Of a DNA stretch of 64,000 nt, positions 43,560 through 53,702 are shown one piece after another; the stretch's first letter is position 1; each line of letters begins with the position of its first letter. The stretch spans positions 3,472,001-3,536,000 of the forward strand of contig NZ_CP009428.1 in the NCBI RefSeq assembly GCF_000758725.1, in the 5' to 3' direction. This stretch comes from Paenibacillus odorifer. GTDB taxonomy: Bacteria > Bacillota > Bacilli > Paenibacillales > Paenibacillaceae. The translations under genes were made by a program, and so were the position numbers. The notes under the pieces are model-generated. The model was not told where the DNA came from and searched no databases. It saw only the letters and a program-made list of their open reading frames with translations.

Positions 43560-43703
43560 GCATCTTCTTGGGTACAATGTACATTAGAATATCTACTACA
43601 CTTCTAGCAATTTCGCACACTATTGTCTATACTGTTTTAAATAAATATCAGAATTGGATCTGATCTTAAAAGAAGCATGGTGCTAGGAAGCAGGTGCAGA
43701 ACA

Positions 43704-44510
43704 TTGATAAATTTGGACAAATTAGCAAAGGCATTTACTAAAGGTGTCTATGAAATAGAAGATAGAAGCCGCTTAGTCATCCAGCCCAAAAGCTTATTAA
43801 GTGAATTCACCACCGTTAAGCATGGATTTCTATTTATCATTCGCGGGGGAGCCAGAATACGTGTGAATGGAACGGTATATGAATTACGGCCAGGATCAGT
43901 TTTTCATGCTGCTCCGGGCATGCAGATGGATTCACAGGTTATAGGACAATCTGAGCTCGAGTATTACTCACTTTTTTATAAATTGGATATGCCGGAAGAA
44001 ATGAATAGTACTCACGAATTTGACTCTCATTTCAAGCTGGAGCCGGGAGCGAATCTAAAGATTATTGAATTACTAATTATGCTCCATCAGAATGCCCATC
44101 CATCCGGAGAAATTGGGAAGCTGCGTATCAAGGAGTTGTTCTTAAGCCTGATGCATCAGGTTCTGATTGCGTGCAGTTACAGAGAGAACGATAGTTCTCC
44201 GAATCAAAGAATGGTAGACGAAGCTCTTGCGTATATTAAACTTCATTATATGAATTCACTTACACTCGGTGAGTTAGCGGAACAGCATGCAATGAGTGCC
44301 AACCGCTTCTCTTACCTCTTTCATAAATATACGGGACTACGACCAATCGACTATGTCGTTAATTATCGTTTGGAACGGGCCTGTGAATTACTCAAAGCAG
44401 GTAATTTTCCTATCCGCGAGATTGCTGACCGTGTTGGTTATGACAATCCACTATATTTCAGCCGATTATTCAAAAAGAAATTCGGTGTTTCTCCCTCTGC
44501 TTATAAATAA
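43704..44510 (+). CDS. AraC-family transcriptional regulator
   Basis: This is a 268-residue protein. A cupin-like N-terminal sensor (FLFIIRGGARIRVNGTVYEL) is followed by two HTHs (LTLGELAEQHAMSANRFSYL and IREIADRVGYDNPLYFSRLF) and the AraC signature ending FGVSPSAYK. The start is put at TTG 43704, seven bases after CAGGTG; the ATG at 43677 has no good site. It lies upstream of a Fur-box iron operon on the same strand and may activate it, as AraC siderophore regulators do. Confidence 0.87.
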   Translation: MINLDKLAKAFTKGVYEIEDRSRLVIQPKSLLSEFTTVKHGFLFIIRGGARIRVNGTVYELRPGSVFHAAPGMQMDSQVIGQSELEYYSLFYKLDMPEEMNSTHEFDSHFKLEPGANLKIIELLIMLHQNAHPSGEIGKLRIKELFLSLMHQVLIACSYRENDSSPNQRMVDEALAYIKLHYMNSLTLGELAEQHAMSANRFSYLFHKYTGLRPIDYVVNYRLERACELLKAGNFPIREIADRVGYDNPLYFSRLFKKKFGVSPSAYK

Positions 44511-44540
44511 TGTACATAATGAGCTTCTTTTACTTGAACT

Positions 44541-44588
44541 ACGTCTGCAGCTACTGGTGATAAGCCAGAAGTGCAGACTTTTTTTATT
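44541..44588 (+). terminator. Rho-independent terminator after AraC gene
   Basis: GTCTGCA pairs with TGCAGAC, with an inner CTGG/CCAG stem, followed by T7. Confidence 0.75.
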
Positions 44589-44670
44589 TAGATTAAATAA
44601 TGATGCATGCTGGATTTGAGATTTGTACATTTGAATTTATTTAAATTTTTGATAAACTCACCTTTGTAAC

Positions 44671-44685
44671 TGAGAATCATTATCA
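44671..44685 (+). promoter_or_regulatory. Fur box
   Basis: TGAGAATCATTATCA matches the 7-1-7 Fur consensus TGATAATNATTATCA at 13 of 14 defined positions. It lies 34 bases ahead of the monooxygenase start and marks the operon as iron-repressed. Confidence 0.85.
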
Positions 44686-44718
44686 GTAAATTGATTTATA
44701 AATGAAAGGCTGGTAGAT

Positions 44719-46029
44719 ATGACAGAAAAAAGACCAAGACAATTATGTATTGGCCTGTCCTTAAATGCAACCTGGATGAAAGGAGACGGCTGGCGGCACC
44801 CGGATAGCGGAGTAGAGAAGATGGAGTCTATTGATTACTATATTGATTTGGCAAAAATGGCTGAGAATTCAAAGCTCGATTTTCTTTTCAGGGCTGATTA
44901 TCTGTATGTTAGCCCGCAGATGTTAGGAGACTCCTCAAATTTCGGCAGCCCCGACCCTGCATTGTTTTTTGCAGCGATAGCTCGTGAAACCGAGCGGATC
45001 GGACTGGTAACGACGATTTCCACTACTTTTAATCCGCCGTATGTTGTTGCAAGGCAATTGCAGTCCTTACACTGGCTGAGCAATGGACGCGCCGGCTGGA
45101 ATATTGTCACTTCGATTGAAGGTGCCGATAATTTCAGCGATTCACCTATGCCGTCACCGGAAGAAAGATATGCCAAGGCTATGGAATTCACGGATGTTGT
45201 ACGCAAGCTTTGGGAGAGTTTTCCGAATGAAGCGATTGTTATCGACCGTCAGTCAGGTATGTTTTCGGATAAGGATAAAGTGACTGCCATTAATCATTCC
45301 GGGGAATTTTTCAGTGTAAAAGGGCCGCTTACTTTGCCTGCTCACAAATCAGGAACACCGCCGCTATTTCAAGCTGGTGCTTCAGACATTGGACGGAATT
45401 TCGCCTCATCTGTAGCCGATGCTATTTTTGCGGCAATGCCGGATATCGAATCGGGAGTGGAACTAAGGAATGATCTGAGAAGAAGAGCGGCTGAGCAGGG
45501 CCGTGATCCGGATGCTATCAAAGTTTTGCCGGGCTTATATTTTTTCCTGGCCGATACGCGCGAAGAAGCACTTAAATTACATAAGGCTGCACATGCGAAT
45601 TTAAGCCTTGAACGCAGACATGCTTCGCTCAAATCGGTGATGGGTCTTGATTTAAGCGGTTATCCCTTAGATAAGCGAGTAACTGACGATATATTACCCG
45701 ATTCCAGTCAGGCCGTCCGCAGCCGGACTCATGCCGAATTGTTACGGCGGTATATTATCAAAAACCAGCCTACAGTGAAAGAAATCTTGGACAGGCCGGA
45801 GGTTGTCGGATCTGCACATTGGGTATCTGTCGGGACAGTAGAGGATGTGCTGAACGATATTATTGAACGGTTTGATGCGGAGGCTATGGATGGCTTCATC
45901 GCCTTGCCAGGCGGCTCGGAACAATCTATGGAGTTGTTTTTTGAGAAGTTGGTACCGGAGCTGGTTGAAAGAGGTTTATTCCGGAGTGAATATACTGGAA
46001 GCACTTTCCGTGAGCATTTAGGGATTTAA
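44719..46029 (+). CDS. FMN-dependent monooxygenase, NtaA/SnaA/DszA family
   Basis: This is a 436-residue bacterial-luciferase-fold enzyme that uses FMNH2 and O2. It has the NtaA-type opening (LCIGLSLNATWMKGDGWRHP), NIVTSIEGADNFSD, SGEFFSVKGPL and PPLFQAGASDIGRNFA. Relatives oxidise nitrilotriacetate, EDTA, sulfur heterocycles and similar ligands. A Fur box precedes it, and an NAD(P)H reductase gene and an iron-siderophore binding lipoprotein follow. This enzyme may therefore break down or modify an iron chelate or siderophore. That role is inference. Confidence 0.88.
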   Translation: MTEKRPRQLCIGLSLNATWMKGDGWRHPDSGVEKMESIDYYIDLAKMAENSKLDFLFRADYLYVSPQMLGDSSNFGSPDPALFFAAIARETERIGLVTTISTTFNPPYVVARQLQSLHWLSNGRAGWNIVTSIEGADNFSDSPMPSPEERYAKAMEFTDVVRKLWESFPNEAIVIDRQSGMFSDKDKVTAINHSGEFFSVKGPLTLPAHKSGTPPLFQAGASDIGRNFASSVADAIFAAMPDIESGVELRNDLRRRAAEQGRDPDAIKVLPGLYFFLADTREEALKLHKAAHANLSLERRHASLKSVMGLDLSGYPLDKRVTDDILPDSSQAVRSRTHAELLRRYIIKNQPTVKEILDRPEVVGSAHWVSVGTVEDVLNDIIERFDAEAMDGFIALPGGSEQSMELFFEKLVPELVERGLFRSEYTGSTFREHLGI

Positions 46030-46054
46030 AAAAGAGAAATGAGGCGATTGAACG

Positions 46055-47104
46055 ATGCATGAAGAGGAATTGTTTGATGTTACGATTATTGGCGGCGGTC
46101 CGGCTGGATTATTTGCTGCATTTTATAGCGGACTCCGTGAAATGAAAACCAAAATTATAGAATTCCAACCTGTGCTTGGCGGCAAGGTGCATGTCTATCC
46201 GGAAAAGATGATCTGGGACGTAGGAGGCTTACAGCCTATTCTTGGCTCACAACTTATTGAACAAATGGTTGCTCAAGGGATGACTTTCCAACCGGAGGTT
46301 GCCTTTAATGAAAAGGTCACATCCATCTCGCAAGATGAAGCAGGTTACTTTATTTTACACACCGCCGCAAACCGGAAGCATTTCACTAAAACTGTGATAT
46401 TGGCCATTGGAGGAGGCATTCTGAAGCCGGTCAAGCTCGAAATCGAGGGTGCCGAAAGATTCGAAATCACAAATTTGCATTATACGGTGAAGTCACTTGC
46501 CCGATTTAAAGAGAAGACTATCCTAATATCGGGAGGCGGCCATTCTGCTGTTGACTGGGCGAATGAACTGGCTCCGATTGCCAAAAAGGTGTCTCTGACG
46601 TACCGGAAAGAGAACTTAAAGGGGCATGAAGCCGATATTTCACGCTTGGCAAACAATGGCGTAGAGTGCTTGTTAAATACTTCAATCGAAAAGTTGATTG
46701 CCACACCGGATCACGAAAGAATAGGGACTGTACTGCTGAAAAGTAATGACAACGGAGAGGCATTTGAGCTGTCTGTCGATGAGGTCATCATTAATCACGG
46801 TTATGAGCGCGACAAAGAACTGCTGGTGAACAGTGAAATTAAAATGGATCTGTGGGAACATCAGATTTCAGGATCAGTAACGAGCGGGACATCCGTGCCG
46901 GGTATTTATGCGGCAGGTGATGTTCTACACCATGATGGGAAACTGCACCTGATCGCGGGGGCATTCCAGGATGCTGCCAATGCGGTAAACCAAGCCAAAC
47001 AATACATCACACCGGAGGCAAATTCGTCCGGGATGGTGTCTTCACATAATGACCTGTTCACGCAGAAAAACCGTAATTTAATGAAGCATTTATACAGACA
47101 GTAA
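46055..47104 (+). CDS. Ferredoxin/flavodoxin-NADP+ reductase (YumC/YcgT type)
   Basis: This 349-residue flavoprotein resembles thioredoxin reductase but lacks the CxxC pair. It shows the FAD site IIGGGPAGLFAAFYSG, the NADP site ISGGGHSAVDWANELA and a C-terminal GIYAAGDVLHHDGKL. It transfers electrons from NADPH to ferredoxin or flavodoxin. B. subtilis has a Fur-regulated paralogue, YcgT. In this operon it may reduce FMN or iron chelates for the monooxygenase step or free Fe(III). Confidence 0.9.
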   Translation: MHEEELFDVTIIGGGPAGLFAAFYSGLREMKTKIIEFQPVLGGKVHVYPEKMIWDVGGLQPILGSQLIEQMVAQGMTFQPEVAFNEKVTSISQDEAGYFILHTAANRKHFTKTVILAIGGGILKPVKLEIEGAERFEITNLHYTVKSLARFKEKTILISGGGHSAVDWANELAPIAKKVSLTYRKENLKGHEADISRLANNGVECLLNTSIEKLIATPDHERIGTVLLKSNDNGEAFELSVDEVIINHGYERDKELLVNSEIKMDLWEHQISGSVTSGTSVPGIYAAGDVLHHDGKLHLIAGAFQDAANAVNQAKQYITPEANSSGMVSSHNDLFTQKNRNLMKHLYRQ

Positions 47105-47129
47105 TGATAACAACTCAAGGGGGAGCCAA

Positions 47130-48077
47130 ATGAAAAGACTATATGGATGGATTGCATCCTTAATTATACTTGCAGGATTATTGGCTGGATGTTCCGAAAC
47201 TTCAGTCACGCCTACACCGGAAGCCGGCAAGATCGATGAAGCGGGATGGCCTAGAACAATTGCGGATGCCAGCGACAATGGAGTGGTGCTTAAGACACGT
47301 CCTGAGCGTATAGCGGTTTTGCATCCCTTGTATTTAGATTACTTTTTTGCTCTAGATACTCCTCCAATCGCATCAACCAATGCAGCGGAAGCGATGAAGG
47401 ATTTTGCTACTTTACAGCCTTATGCTGGAACTGCTGAAATTATTAATTTGGGCAGCAGCAATGCGAACCTGGAAATGATCATGGATGCAAAGCCAGATGT
47501 GATTGTAACCTTCAAGGGTTCTGTTGATAGCAATTATGAAGAGTTGAATAAGATTGCACCAGTCATCTTAATTGACTACACCGATACCTGGGAAAAAACG
47601 GCCATGCTGTGTGCTCAGATTGTTGGTAAAGAGACATTAGCGGAACAAGCCATTAAGGAAACCCAAGAAATGATTGCAAAAACAAAAGAACAGTTAAGTA
47701 GTCTTGAGAATAAAACATTTGCTTTACTACGGGTCGACGGAAAAGCCAATTTTAATGCTCAAGGCTCTAAAAACACGATGTACTACAATCAAACTGTAGG
47801 CTTTGGGTTGTTGCCACCAAAGGGATATCCTGAAGAGGGAGGGGCACTTTCTCTGGAGGGAATATACAGCATGAATCCAGATTATATTATTATCCAGCAT
47901 GATATGGATATCGCAAAGGCAGCCATCAAGGACAAGGAAACTTCGAACGTGTGGAACTCACTGGAAGCAGTGAAAAACAATCATGTACTTATCTTTGATA
48001 ACTCACTCAATAGCGCAAGTATCCTGGCTGTCCGTTTGGCTGCAGATCATTTTCTGCAATTGGCGTCTGAACAATAA
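47130..48077 (+). CDS. Iron-siderophore ABC transporter substrate-binding lipoprotein
   Basis: This is a 315-residue class III binding protein. The lipobox LLAGC (Cys21) anchors it to the membrane. TRPERIAVLHPLYLDYFFAL, MIMDAKPDVIVTF and the C-terminal NVWNSLEAVKNNHVLIFDNS are typical of FecB/FhuD-type proteins. No permease or ATPase is next to it, so it must share a transporter encoded elsewhere. It is third gene of the Fur-box operon and is followed by a terminator. Confidence 0.9.
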   Translation: MKRLYGWIASLIILAGLLAGCSETSVTPTPEAGKIDEAGWPRTIADASDNGVVLKTRPERIAVLHPLYLDYFFALDTPPIASTNAAEAMKDFATLQPYAGTAEIINLGSSNANLEMIMDAKPDVIVTFKGSVDSNYEELNKIAPVILIDYTDTWEKTAMLCAQIVGKETLAEQAIKETQEMIAKTKEQLSSLENKTFALLRVDGKANFNAQGSKNTMYYNQTVGFGLLPPKGYPEEGGALSLEGIYSMNPDYIIIQHDMDIAKAAIKDKETSNVWNSLEAVKNNHVLIFDNSLNSASILAVRLAADHFLQLASEQ

Positions 48078-48154: not shown

Positions 48155-48169
48155 TGATAATGGTTATCA
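48155..48169 (+). promoter_or_regulatory. Fur box
   Basis: TGATAATGGTTATCA is a 7-1-7 Fur box with one mismatch. It lies downstream of TTGACT (48144-48149) and 41 bases ahead of the AraC-SBP start. Confidence 0.85.
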
Positions 48170-48210
48170 TTTATGATGAGTATTAGACAGATAACGGAGG
48201 GGTAGTCATT

Positions 48211-50130
48211 ATGCACAAAAGCAATCAAATATTGCTTTGGGACCAAGCGACGGTCAAGTTATTGGATGTGCGCCGTATTGAAAGGGTTCGGGGCGAAATT
48301 CTTCATAAATATAAGATTCCTGCCAGTATATTTTTACTTTCGGTACAAGGGAGCGCTCAAGTTCAATTAGATCAGTCTGAATTTTCTTTTACAGGATTTC
48401 AAGTCCTGCATAGCGGGAAAGGAGCGACCCTTAATATTGTTCCGACAAGCAAGAATTTTGTTTACTATATCATTTATTACCGTGCATGGATGCAAGAGGA
48501 GGATCTGTTCCAAACACAATATTGTTTTTCCCCAGATGCACCCATTTTACTTTATAACAAAATGCAATTGATGTATCAAAAATGGAACGAGCAAGAAGAG
48601 AGACTCAATGTAAAATCACTTTTTTATCAATTCATTCATCAGGTTTTAAAAGAATTACATAGAAAAGAGACTGAAGTGAAACAAACAAGTGTTGCAGTCC
48701 AGGTAATCACCTATATCCAGGAGTACTATGCGGAGCCAATTACATTAGATTCGCTTGCGGAAGTATTTAATTTCAGTGCTTATCATTTGTCATCCTTGTT
48801 TAAAGAGCACACAGGTATGAGTCCGATTGATTACTTAATTCGGTTTCGGCTTGAACTTGCAACGGAGCTTTTAATGACAACAGATGCTTCGGTCGGGGAA
48901 ATATCAGCAAGTGTTGGTTATAAAGACGTATATTATTTCAGCCGAATTTTCAAGAAAAGAAAAGGTGTATCCCCTGCACATTTTAGAACAAGAGAGTTTC
49001 AGCGGCCTAAAGTTGCTGAAAGTCCATTAAACTTCCCCACATCCTCTATTTTTGAACCCATCGTTCAACAGTATATTAATAATGATAATCATTATCATAA
49101 TACGGAAAAAGGGGAATTACCTATGTTTAAAATGACAAAATCTCAGACGACGGCAGCTTTACTGCTTTGCAGTTCTCTATTATTAGGTGCTTGCTCAAGC
49201 GGGACGGGTACTGCTACGAAGGAACAAAGTAATGGGAATGGAACCGTAAATCAAGCAACATCAGAAGAAAGTACGAACACTCGAATAGTATCAACGCCTA
49301 AGGGAGATGTGGAAGTACCAGCAGAGCCGAAAAGAGTGGCGGCTGACCAATATATGGGGCATTTATTGAAATTAGGAATTATACCCATCGGAGCAAGAAC
49401 GTTTATGCTGGATGAAGGGTGGATGGAAAAAGCGGACATACCCAAAGAAACGATCGAGAAAATTGAGGATTTAGGGGATTTTCCTTTAAATTTGGAAAAA
49501 TTAACGATGCTAGATCCGGACTTAATTATCGGTTCGATCGATGAGAACATAGAACAATATGAGAAAATTGGGACCACTGTTTTTCTGCCTTATTGGGAGG
49601 GGTTAAAAACAGCAGGGCCGCTTGATAAATTTAGGAGTGTAAGCAAAATATTCGGAAAAGAAAAAGAAGCAGAAGAATGGATTACGGAATATGAACTGAA
49701 AGTAGCTGAAGCAAAGTCGAAACTTGCCGGGGTTATCAAGGAAGGGGAAACCGTTTCGATTGTTCAGTTTTCACAAAAGGCCGTGTACGTCTTAGCGGCA
49801 AAGGGAGAAAATTATGGTTCTTCCACTATATACAATATGCTGAAGCTGCCTCCAACAGAAAGTGCCAAAAATATGGCGGAGGGGTTTGAATCCATTTCAC
49901 TTGAAGTGCTTCTAGAATACTTAGGTGATTATGTTTTTGTATATAATGGCGATGCGGATGCAACCAATAAAGCAATGGAAAGTAACATATGGAAAGGCAT
50001 CCCTGCAGTGAAAAATGGCAAAGTTTATTTGTATGGCGATAATTATCATGATGAATTCGTAATGGAGGACCCTTTTTCATTAGAGCTTCAGCTTGATACG
50101 ATTGTGAATTTGTTACTTGGTTATCAGTAA
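48211..50130 (+). CDS. AraC-family regulator fused in frame to a siderophore-binding lipoprotein
   Basis: This is a single open frame of 639 residues. Residues 1-275 are a complete AraC regulator: cupin-like sensor, then HTHs ITLDSLAEVFNFSAYHLSSL and VGEISASVGYKDVYYFSRIF, ending KGVSPAHFRTREF. Residues 276-304 (FEPIVQQYINNDNHYHNTEK in part) are encoded by DNA that holds a promoter-like motif, a perfect Fur box and a ribosome site. Residues 305-639 are a full lipoprotein with its own signal peptide. B. subtilis Btr (YbbB) is an AraC-binding protein fusion, but its binding domain is cytosolic and has no signal peptide. It may be two genes whose separating stop was lost. Confidence 0.8.
   Translation: MHKSNQILLWDQATVKLLDVRRIERVRGEILHKYKIPASIFLLSVQGSAQVQLDQSEFSFTGFQVLHSGKGATLNIVPTSKNFVYYIIYYRAWMQEEDLFQTQYCFSPDAPILLYNKMQLMYQKWNEQEERLNVKSLFYQFIHQVLKELHRKETEVKQTSVAVQVITYIQEYYAEPITLDSLAEVFNFSAYHLSSLFKEHTGMSPIDYLIRFRLELATELLMTTDASVGEISASVGYKDVYYFSRIFKKRKGVSPAHFRTREFQRPKVAESPLNFPTSSIFEPIVQQYINNDNHYHNTEKGELPMFKMTKSQTTAALLLCSSLLLGACSSGTGTATKEQSNGNGTVNQATSEESTNTRIVSTPKGDVEVPAEPKRVAADQYMGHLLKLGIIPIGARTFMLDEGWMEKADIPKETIEKIEDLGDFPLNLEKLTMLDPDLIIGSIDENIEQYEKIGTTVFLPYWEGLKTAGPLDKFRSVSKIFGKEKEAEEWITEYELKVAEAKSKLAGVIKEGETVSIVQFSQKAVYVLAAKGENYGSSTIYNMLKLPPTESAKNMAEGFESISLEVLLEYLGDYVFVYNGDADATNKAMESNIWKGIPAVKNGKVYLYGDNYHDEFVMEDPFSLELQLDTIVNLLLGYQ
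49052..49097 (+). promoter_or_regulatory. Internal promoter-like motif and perfect Fur box
   Basis: TTGAAC (49052-49057), 16 bases, then TATTAA (49074-49079) are followed by TGATAATCATTATCA (49083-49097), an exact 7-1-7 Fur box. AAAGGGGA then leads to ATG 49123. All of this lies inside the open AraC-SBP frame. Confidence 0.8.
49123..50130 (+). CDS. Iron-siderophore substrate-binding lipoprotein (internal start)
   Basis: Starting at ATG 49123 behind AAAGGGG, this is a normal 335-residue binding protein. The signal peptide AALLLCSSLLLGAC has a lipobox Cys at residue 24. IVSTPKGDVEVPAEPKRVAA, MLDPDLIIGSIDEN and IPAVKNGKVYLYGDNYH are typical of FeuA/FhuD-type proteins. Its own Fur box and promoter motif argue that it is made separately from the AraC part. 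No permease or ATPase follows. It would capture a ferric siderophore at the cell surface. Confidence 0.85.
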   Translation: MFKMTKSQTTAALLLCSSLLLGACSSGTGTATKEQSNGNGTVNQATSEESTNTRIVSTPKGDVEVPAEPKRVAADQYMGHLLKLGIIPIGARTFMLDEGWMEKADIPKETIEKIEDLGDFPLNLEKLTMLDPDLIIGSIDENIEQYEKIGTTVFLPYWEGLKTAGPLDKFRSVSKIFGKEKEAEEWITEYELKVAEAKSKLAGVIKEGETVSIVQFSQKAVYVLAAKGENYGSSTIYNMLKLPPTESAKNMAEGFESISLEVLLEYLGDYVFVYNGDADATNKAMESNIWKGIPAVKNGKVYLYGDNYHDEFVMEDPFSLELQLDTIVNLLLGYQ

Positions 50131-50176: not shown

Positions 50177-50405
50177 GTACTAATATCCCGATAGCCCAAT
50201 CCTTCATCATGAGCCTCAGCAACTGTGACTTTTTTCATAATACCCTTTCTATATTCGACCCGTTTTATAGGCCAAAAGTATAATTTTTACAGCAGTTTAC
50301 ATAAATCTATCTTTTTTTTAATTGTTTTGAGATAGGATAGTAGATGTCAAGCAGGTGGGTATTTATGGTAATTACTCACCGGACTATTTCTTGAGGAGGA
50401 AGGGT

Positions 50406-53400
50406 ATGAAGGAGAAGAATTCAGTTTGGAAAAAGAGGCTGATGAACAGCACTCTATCTGTGGCGGTGGCCGTACCACTTCAGCTGTTCACGTTCGGAGC
50501 CGGTTCGGCGGTATTCGCAGAAGGACCAAACGATCCTGCACCGTACATTGAGGCCAAAGTGGTCAATGAGCATGCAGGCCAGAAGATCCTGTTTGACAAT
50601 ACCCATGAGCAGACTGCGGGAGCAGCCGATTGGGTGATTGACGGCGCTTTTTCAGACTTTGGGAATGCCCTTGCCCAGGAAGGCTATTATGTCAAAGAAC
50701 TCCGCAAGACGACTCCAATTACTTTGAGTGATCTTTCCGATTATGATGTCTACATCGTCGCCGAATCCAACGTGCCCTACAAAGCAAGCGAGCAGCTTGC
50801 GATGGCGGAATATGTGGAGGATGGCGGCAGTATTTTCTTCATCGGCGACCATTATAATGCCGACCGCAACAAAAACCGCTGGGATGGTTCTGAAGCTTTC
50901 AACGGCTACCGCCGTGGAGCGTGGGACAATCCAGCCAAAGGCATGAATGCCGATGAGGTCGCTTCTGCAGCCATGCAGGGTGTGGTTAGCTCTGACTGGC
51001 TGGCGGACGAGTTCGGTGTCCGTTTCCGCTACAATGCGCTTGGCGACATTAACGCAACCAACATCGTGGCTCCCGATCAAGCCTTCGGCATTACAACGGG
51101 CGTATCGGCGGTAGCTATGCATGCCGGTTCCACGCTGGCCATTCTAGACCCAGCACGTGCGAAAGGTATCGTCTACCTGCCGCAAACCAATGCTGCCTGG
51201 GCCAATGCCGTAGACCAGGGGGTCTATAACGGCGGCGGTGTGGCAGAAGGTCCTTATGTAGCAGTTGCGAAAAAAGGCGCCGGCAAGGCAGCCTTCATCG
51301 GTGACTCATCTCCTGTAGAAGATGCAACACCGAAATACCTGCGCGAAGATACCGGCGCCAAGAAAACAACTTACGATGGCTTCAAGGAAGTGGACGATGC
51401 CACACTGCTGGTTAACACCGTCAACTGGCTCGCTGAGCAGGAGAGCTATACGGATTTCACCCAGGTGAATGGCCTGATGCTAGATCAGCCGACAGCACTG
51501 CTGCCATTCGAGGAGCCAGCGCTGTCCACTGAGCCGCAACCGGAGCCTTGGGCTCAACCAAATGCTGGCTACAAATGGTATGATCGCAGCACCTTCAAAG
51601 CAGGCTCCTACGGCGGACCAGCAGCCACTGCAAGTGCGGTTTATAACTTCACGCACCAGGCTGTGCTGCCAAATGCACAGAATTTTCAGATTCGGGTGAG
51701 TGCAGATAATCTTCCAGCAGGCACAAGCGTTTCCGGCTTCCAGGTAGGTGTCTACCAGGTAAGCAGCGGCGCCCAAATCGCCAAGATTCAGAACAGCGAC
51801 GGCACCTGGCCAAGCAGCTACGGCTATAGCTCCTCATTCAATCTGACGGCTGATCTGAACGGTCATGCCTACAAGGACCTGACGATCCAGATCAAGCCGG
51901 GCACCACAGCTGCATCCAATCTGCGCCTCCGTCAGAACAGTACAAACCTCAAGACTGAATCGGTGACGCTGGGCAATGTTCCTGCTGAACCGCTTCCGGC
52001 TGAGGAAGATCCCATTCCGGCTACAATCTCTATCGGCGATTCCCGGGCTAAGGCAGCCGGATCACTGGTAACGGTGGAGGGGACCGTGACGACCGAGCCG
52101 GGTATCTTTGGCGGACAGTCCTTCTATCTCCAAGATGGAACCGGTGGGGTTTATGTCTTCCAGAGTCAGAGCGGCTTCCACGTGGGCGATAAGGTCAAGG
52201 TAACAGCGTCCACCGCACTGTACAACACAGAGCTGGAGCTGACCGAAGCAGTACAAATTGCGAAGACGGGCACGGCGGCACTGCCGCAGCCGATTGCGGC
52301 GAACATGGTGAATGATGCCAACCAAGGCCAATTGGTTCAACTGAACGGTGTGACAGTGGCGAACATTATCAACGCTACGCCAAGCGGCTCCTTTGAATTC
52401 GACGCAGTCAACGCCGACGGGACAAGCAATCATGTGCGCGTGGATGCCCGGACAGGCATTACTAAGGATATCTTCCCTTATACTGAGGGACAAAAACTTA
52501 ATATCACAGGTGTTGCCGCAATTTTTAAAGGCATCTACCAGCTCAAGCCGAGAAGCCTCGATGACTTCGCCGCAGCAGAAGAAGAGGGGGCTCCGGTGAC
52601 AACGGCGACGCTGTCTGCCGAGCCTAATGCTTCCGGCTGGTTTAACCAGCCGGTCACCGTTACCCTGAAGGCGAATACAGATACAGCTAATGTTTATTAC
52701 TCGCTTAACGGCAACAATGAAGCTGAGTACAGTACACCTGTGGACCTGAAGGAAGACGGGCGGCATACATTGACATACCATGCTGTGCCGGGAAAAGGCA
52801 AATCGGAAGATCCCAAGACGTTGAACCTCAATATTGATACGGCTCCACCGGTTGCCGAACTGAAGGAATCCGGCCATGAGGTGAGAGATGTAGAAGAAGG
52901 AGCGCAGCTTTACTTTGAATTGACTGCTGACGATATATTGTCAGGTGTCACCTCGAAACAGCTTCTATTAGATGGGAAAACGATTGCCGAGGGCCAGACC
53001 CTGAGCGCCGCCGATTTAGGCGCCGGCTCCCACACCGTGAAATACACCGTGCAGGATGCGGCCAGCAATACGACTGAAAAGAGCTATACTTTCCAGGTTA
53101 TTGGCGGCCAGGTGATTGCGACTGGTAAGCCAGGACAGGCTGATCTTTCCTCCAACAGCAGCTATGCTAATGGACTTAGTGATGGTAACTATACGGTCAC
53201 CATGAACCTATGGTGGGGTAATAACGGCACGAGCTACAAACTCTATGAGAACGGCACACTGATTGATTCTAAGACACTGAAGGATGTATCGCCGGCTGCC
53301 CAGACGGCAAGCACAGAGCTTCATGGCAAGGTGAACGGCACTTATGTATACACTGCGGAGTTAACCAACAAATATGGCACGACCAAGATCGATTCGCTTA

Positions 53401-53702
53401 CGGTCACCATAAGTGACTCTGCGCCGGGCAAGCCGATTCTGTCCGAAGATAACTGGGACGGAGATGGCACCTATAAGGTGTCGATGAATCTTTGGTGGGG
53501 AACTAACGCTACAGAGTACCGACTGTATGAAAACGGGGAGCTCATCGACTCACAGCCGCTGAATGCCCATACACCTTCGGCGCAAAGTGCAGCAACCACC
53601 ATCAGCGGACGCTCTGCCGGTGTGTACGAATATCGGGCGGAGCTGGTCAACGCGGCGGGAGTAACTGCCAGTGATACGATCAAGGTAACGGTCATCCGCT
53701 AA
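50406..53702 (+). CDS. Large secreted multidomain protein (GATase-like, OB-fold, ChiA-N-like repeats)
   Basis: This 1098-residue protein has a signal peptide (about 1-38, ending AVFA). An N-terminal class I glutamine-amidotransferase-like/DUF4350-type domain follows (about 45-360; [37 protein letters not shown]). A beta domain (about 385-525) is next, then an OB-fold of the YhcR/nuclease type (about 535-680; [19 protein letters not shown]). Two Ig-like segments follow ([32 protein letters not shown]), and two ChiA N-terminal-like repeats end it ([20 protein letters not shown] and [20 protein letters not shown]). The start is ATG 50406 behind GAGGAGGAAGGG. It appears GC-richer than its neighbours. 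An extracellular nucleic-acid or polysaccharide role is possible; no catalytic residues could be assigned. Confidence 0.8.

Follow-up and report, generated by a model that had tools for sequence, protein, structure and literature searches.

The open reading frame at 48211–50130 (+) of the window (the whole stretch of Paenibacillus odorifer DNA that was analysed, 64,000 nucleotides) is probably a nested in-frame dual-product gene, encoding a Btr-like AraC–SBP regulator and, from a separate start inside the same frame, a Fur-controlled lipoprotein receptor. What the sequence itself shows is one unbroken frame, conservation of the DNA cassette and of the lipobox, and the gene context; conservation suggests the two starts, and the parallel with Btr suggests a cytoplasmic fusion that responds to ligand, and we infer accumulation of both proteins and Fur repression at both starts. 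Product 1, the 639-aa AraC–SBP fusion, would be made from an upstream Fur-box promoter and ATG 48211; its AraC half would bind DNA, and its siderophore-binding half, kept in the cytoplasm, would sense imported ferri-siderophore in the manner of Btr. Product 2, the binding domain with its signal peptide, would be made from an internal Fur-controlled promoter and ATG 49123, exported, and lipid-anchored as receptor for a FecCD-type ABC transporter; when iron is scarce, Fur would release both starts. The features of the gene are as follows.

48155–48169 (+): Fur box before the full-length start, TGATAATGGTTATCA, 1 mismatch (Fur-box match)
48196–48202 (+): Shine–Dalgarno sequence GGAGGGG for the full-length product, 6/7 matches
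48211–50130 (+): fused ORF; AraC regulator, linker, signal peptide with lipobox, siderophore-binding domain
48250–48528 (+): N-terminal beta-barrel (cupin-like) domain, residues 14–106 (AlphaFold2 model)
48691–49002 (+): AraC-type double HTH DNA-binding domain, residues 161–264 (Pfam, AlphaFold2)
49003–49122 (+): disordered linker (pLDDT about 33), its DNA doubling as putative internal promoter cassette
49049–49054 (+): weak −35-like element TTTTTG, at the invariant ATT codon column 280
49072–49077 (+): −10-like element TATATT, 17-nt spacing from TTTTTG
49078–49097 (+): internal Fur box, 18/19 to GATAATGATAATCATTATC, translated as NNDNHYH
49108–49114 (+): internal Shine–Dalgarno sequence AAAGGGG, a family-wide match
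49123–49125 (+): predicted internal start ATG, fusion residue 305, in the start-codon column of the family
49123–49194 (+): signal peptide and lipobox LGAC with Cys 328 (49192–49194), Cys in 140/140 of the family
49279–50118 (+): FhuD-like siderophore-binding domain, residues 357–636 (Pfam, AlphaFold2, fold search)

In the preliminary description, an AraC regulator and a lipoprotein had been placed in one open frame, and this was borne out: the frame runs through 639 aa with no stop, and a Pfam search of the protein gave HTH_18 at residues 182–261 and Peripla_BP_2 at 426–611. In the AlphaFold2 model of the fusion (mean pLDDT 80, pTM 0.47), residues 265–311 were disordered, 311–328 formed a helix corresponding to the signal peptide, and 329–354 were again disordered. 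The binding domain was grouped with FhuD/YfiY/FtsB siderophore receptors by sequence and fold searches; nearest solved structures: 3hxp, 3g9q, 3tny and 8xet. With an AraC HTH and then a Peripla_BP_2-type domain within one protein, the fusion has the domain order of Btr-type regulators in the wider sense; the SBP domain of the Btr type lacks a signal peptide, whereas the 639-aa fusion has one together with an invariant lipobox. SBP fold, signal peptide and lipobox were also found in the combination typical of lipoprotein siderophore-binding proteins of FecCD transporters.

The exact Fur box (15-mer TGATAATCATTATCA, 49083–49097), AAAGGGG, ATG 49123, signal peptide and lipobox, which had been assigned to the linker and the sequence after it, were all found there; the promoter TTGAAC/TATTAA proposed with them was replaced by the family-equivalent pair TTTTTG/TATATT listed above. 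The exact 15-mer occurs in 12 copies in the 6.8-Mb genome, 4 of the 12 within its six fused ORFs; at ≤1 mismatch, 37 copies were counted genome-wide (reversed-pattern control: 2), with a copy inside 6/6 fused ORFs and a second copy upstream in 5/6. Family-wide, the regions upstream of the full-length starts scored well above shuffles for a Fur box.

Conservation was followed in a family set of 140 distinct full-length fused ORFs, all from one genus, the linkers of which hold the −10 element, Fur box, Shine–Dalgarno sequence and start codon in frame. Every one of the ORFs (140/140) keeps the lipobox Cys. The internal start column reads ATG in 110, GTG in 17 and TTG in 9 (total 136/140), and in the other 4 the start codon is displaced by 1–2 codons; the Val codons of this column are GTG in 17/17 (family usage 0.30) and the Leu codons TTG in 9/9 (family usage 0.17). 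Codon identity, scored at aligned same-residue positions in pairs of <60% identity, was close to expected over most of the gene; it reached 0.93 vs 0.55 expected at residues 289–296 (the Fur/−10 part) and 0.62 vs 0.29 expected at residues 273–280, the synonymous-codon constraint peaking at residues 273–307. An internal Fur box of ≥14/19 was present in 132/140 ORFs, the frame being identical in 138; at ≥15/19 it was found in 85% of linkers vs 53% of synonymously recoded and 0% of shuffled ones, and a Shine–Dalgarno match of ≥5/7 preceded 89% of internal starts vs 14% of other in-frame Met codons, these codon, Fur and Shine–Dalgarno statistics coming from related sequences with shared ancestry counted in. 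A promoter match of ≥9/12 was obtained for 63% of linkers vs 36% after synonymous recoding; the signal of the −35 hexamer was weak. Synonymous positions are constrained and the frame is invariant; therefore, both the DNA signals and the reading frame are kept. The proposal that the gene yields the fusion as well as a separate lipoprotein is well supported, as far as sequence can tell, by the conserved frame and the promoter/Fur/Shine–Dalgarno/start cassette; promoter, operator, ribosome site and signal peptide would then be maintained within a coding frame.

Observations that count against two products are the weak −35 element of this member, the hydrophobic signal helix of the full-length product, superfluous in a wholly cytoplasmic protein, the lack of a permease gene directly downstream of most dual genes (32/40), and the weak constraint on linker residues ahead of the cassette. 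In another reading, the full-length product spans the membrane as a regulator, AraC inside, the signal helix as anchor and the SBP outside; it may be lipidated and cut by LspA before Cys 328, which would free the AraC half, and an internally started lipoprotein may be made too. The hydrophobic helix 311–328 and the lipobox are present in every member, and CadC/ToxR-like regulators make an N-terminal DNA-binding domain ahead of a membrane segment feasible; the part order of the dual gene in the AlphaFold2 model (DNA-binding, hydrophobic segment, sensor) fits this precedent. A membrane-spanning regulator needs no internal Fur box, Shine–Dalgarno sequence or start, however, and all of these show constraint on the DNA itself; moreover, the hydrophobicity of the helix falls slightly short of that in standalone SBPs (KD 1.73 vs 1.91), and the sibling Btr-type fusions lack a membrane segment. 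This reading is unlikely. Its combined form, with the fusion inserted in the membrane, SBP outside, lipidation and LspA cleavage freeing the AraC half, and the internal Fur promoter adding further receptor, is given a somewhat smaller chance; if it were true, one polypeptide would be receptor, signal transducer and regulator. The location of the long form despite its signal peptide would be a clean test of signal peptides far from the N-terminus.

The frame between the two halves is kept with little regard to length: between the last HTH motif and the internal start 11 distances were found, from 43 to 57 codons, every one in frame. Frame +2 of the linker holds stops in 140/140, since the Fur box there reads TAA TGA TAA. 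The relatives, which were to be searched for a stop in the linker, proved to be fused; beside the 140 intact ORFs, one linker break was seen, in locus L169 (1–2843) of genome G098, where a frameshift near the internal Shine–Dalgarno sequence parts the halves and the AraC product ends in the translated Fur box. Ahead of the cassette the codon-position signal of the linker is weak (0.155/0.180/0.233 at positions 1/2/3); therefore, the amino acids there are hardly constrained and the frame alone is, so that selection on the linker seems to act on its openness and its DNA signals and not on its residues. The weakly constrained residues, and the tolerance of a parting frameshift in L169, would also suit a case in which only the short lipoprotein and the regulator matter, the absent stop being harmless and the fusion a functionless by-product. 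One break against 140 fused ORFs, and 11 linker lengths with none out of frame, make this improbable, and independent Btr-type AraC–SBP fusions indicate that joining of the two domains is useful (PMC9609785, PMC3896406). Still less credible, and rejected, is a single fusion product with the internal cassette as relic of an ancestral fusion: the cassette does resemble the promoter of a formerly separate SBP gene, but synonymous positions, start-codon identity and lipobox would not persist as a relic over such divergence.

Fused relatives were found at 87, 54 and 51% identity, at 74% in Paenibacillus silagei, and outside Paenibacillus in Cohnella phaseoli (48%) and Lysinibacillus sp. ZYM-1 (37%); distant relatives at 33–40% were likewise fused, and the P. 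odorifer genome carries five further full-length fused paralogs beside the 48211–50130 gene. In the genus sample 49/100 genomes matched the profile at E ≤ 1e-100, most matches being full-length and internal stops few; in the Paenibacillaceae a match was obtained in 178/400 genomes and 11/19 genera (E ≤ 1e-130). A mid-frame signal peptide and promoter resemble a normal gene start, but the recent loss of a stop, raised in the preliminary description, or a sequencing error that fused two ordinary genes in this strain is practically ruled out, 140 distinct fused ORFs, identities down to about 33% and several genera refuting it. The fused dual gene looks, on this distribution, like an old and widespread design and not a recent accident. 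In genome G098 three dual genes stand in tandem on the same strand (G098:C1:2316512–2322964).

In a tree of AraC halves, built by a quick method from which the group counts are taken, all 56 sampled dual genes and the split L169 fell into one clade (SH-aLRT 95), apart from 11/13 Btr-type regulators; therefore, most Btr-type fusions are probably not derived from dual genes. In the tree of binding domains the dual genes were interspersed with standalone receptors and domains of Btr type, and well-supported branches force at least 8 changes; individual placements are unsure on account of long branches. The simplest reading is a single origin of AraC half, linker and Fur cassette, probably shared by the signal peptide, and the scatter suggests that the ligand-binding domain of dual genes was swapped repeatedly. 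Two fused AraC–SBP genes, L034 (genome G020) and L039 (G018), are sister to the dual clade and have neither lipobox nor internal Fur box; no separate SBP gene was present within the flanks examined. They may represent dual genes that have decayed, or a state that came before them; as proof of decay these sister forms were rejected because the direction is not readable without an outgroup. The suggestion that the dual gene may show how Btr-type sensors arise is borne out in part only, 11/13 Btr-type regulators lying outside the dual clade. Both genes encode a hydrophobic stretch at the place of the signal peptide (LLSLTLLCTGG in L034).

The genes of IF2, ClpB and CheA give a long and a short product by an in-frame internal start, and the dual gene resembles them in having one frame and two predicted N-termini; it differs in that its short product has its own putative Fur-controlled promoter and predicted export, and in that the two products would act in different compartments. 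With the FhuD/YfiY/FtsB lipoproteins it shares signal peptide, lipobox and siderophore-binding fold, whereas its SBP has no upstream gene border of its own and is encoded by the 3′ half of a regulator gene, in frame with it. Btr of B. subtilis is the regulator of feuABC and has a FeuA-like sensory domain (PMC9609785); its gene sits upstream of feuA (PMC3896406). As in Btr, an AraC DNA-binding half is followed by a siderophore-binding domain, and the gene adjoins a Fur-controlled locus for siderophore uptake or belongs to it. In Btr-type fusions, by contrast, the HTH is joined straight to the SBP domain, with neither signal peptide nor internal promoter; those of genome G000 have 534–609 aa, and in most loci examined in these genomes they adjoin a separate lipoprotein SBP gene. 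The 639-aa protein scored 95.3 bits with the NCBIfam Btr equivalog NF049932, below its cut-off of 900. No description of such a regulator/receptor dual-gene arrangement was found in a literature search; automatic annotation would easily miss it, calling a long regulator or a truncated gene.

If both products of the proposed dual gene are made, one frame provides a regulator as well as the surface receptor that matches it, the ligand-binding domain being identical in both, and the specificities of sensing and uptake therefore could not diverge; one domain swap would alter both together.

Two of the paralogous loci, L182 and L185, have the dual gene as the sole SBP gene ahead of two FecCD permeases, followed in L185 by an ATPase gene. 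Among 40 further loci a FecCD permease stood directly downstream of the dual gene in 8 and was absent there in 32; the 48211–50130 gene itself has no adjacent permease and does not occupy the SBP position of a FecCD operon. Just upstream of it, 43677–48077 (+) is likely a Fur-controlled siderophore-use cluster, with genes for an AraC regulator, a luciferase-like monooxygenase, a pyridine-nucleotide oxidoreductase and a lipoprotein SBP, and with a Fur box (1 mismatch) at 44671–44685. Downstream of the fused gene, the ORF at 50355–53702 (1115 aa) resembles a secreted multidomain protein.
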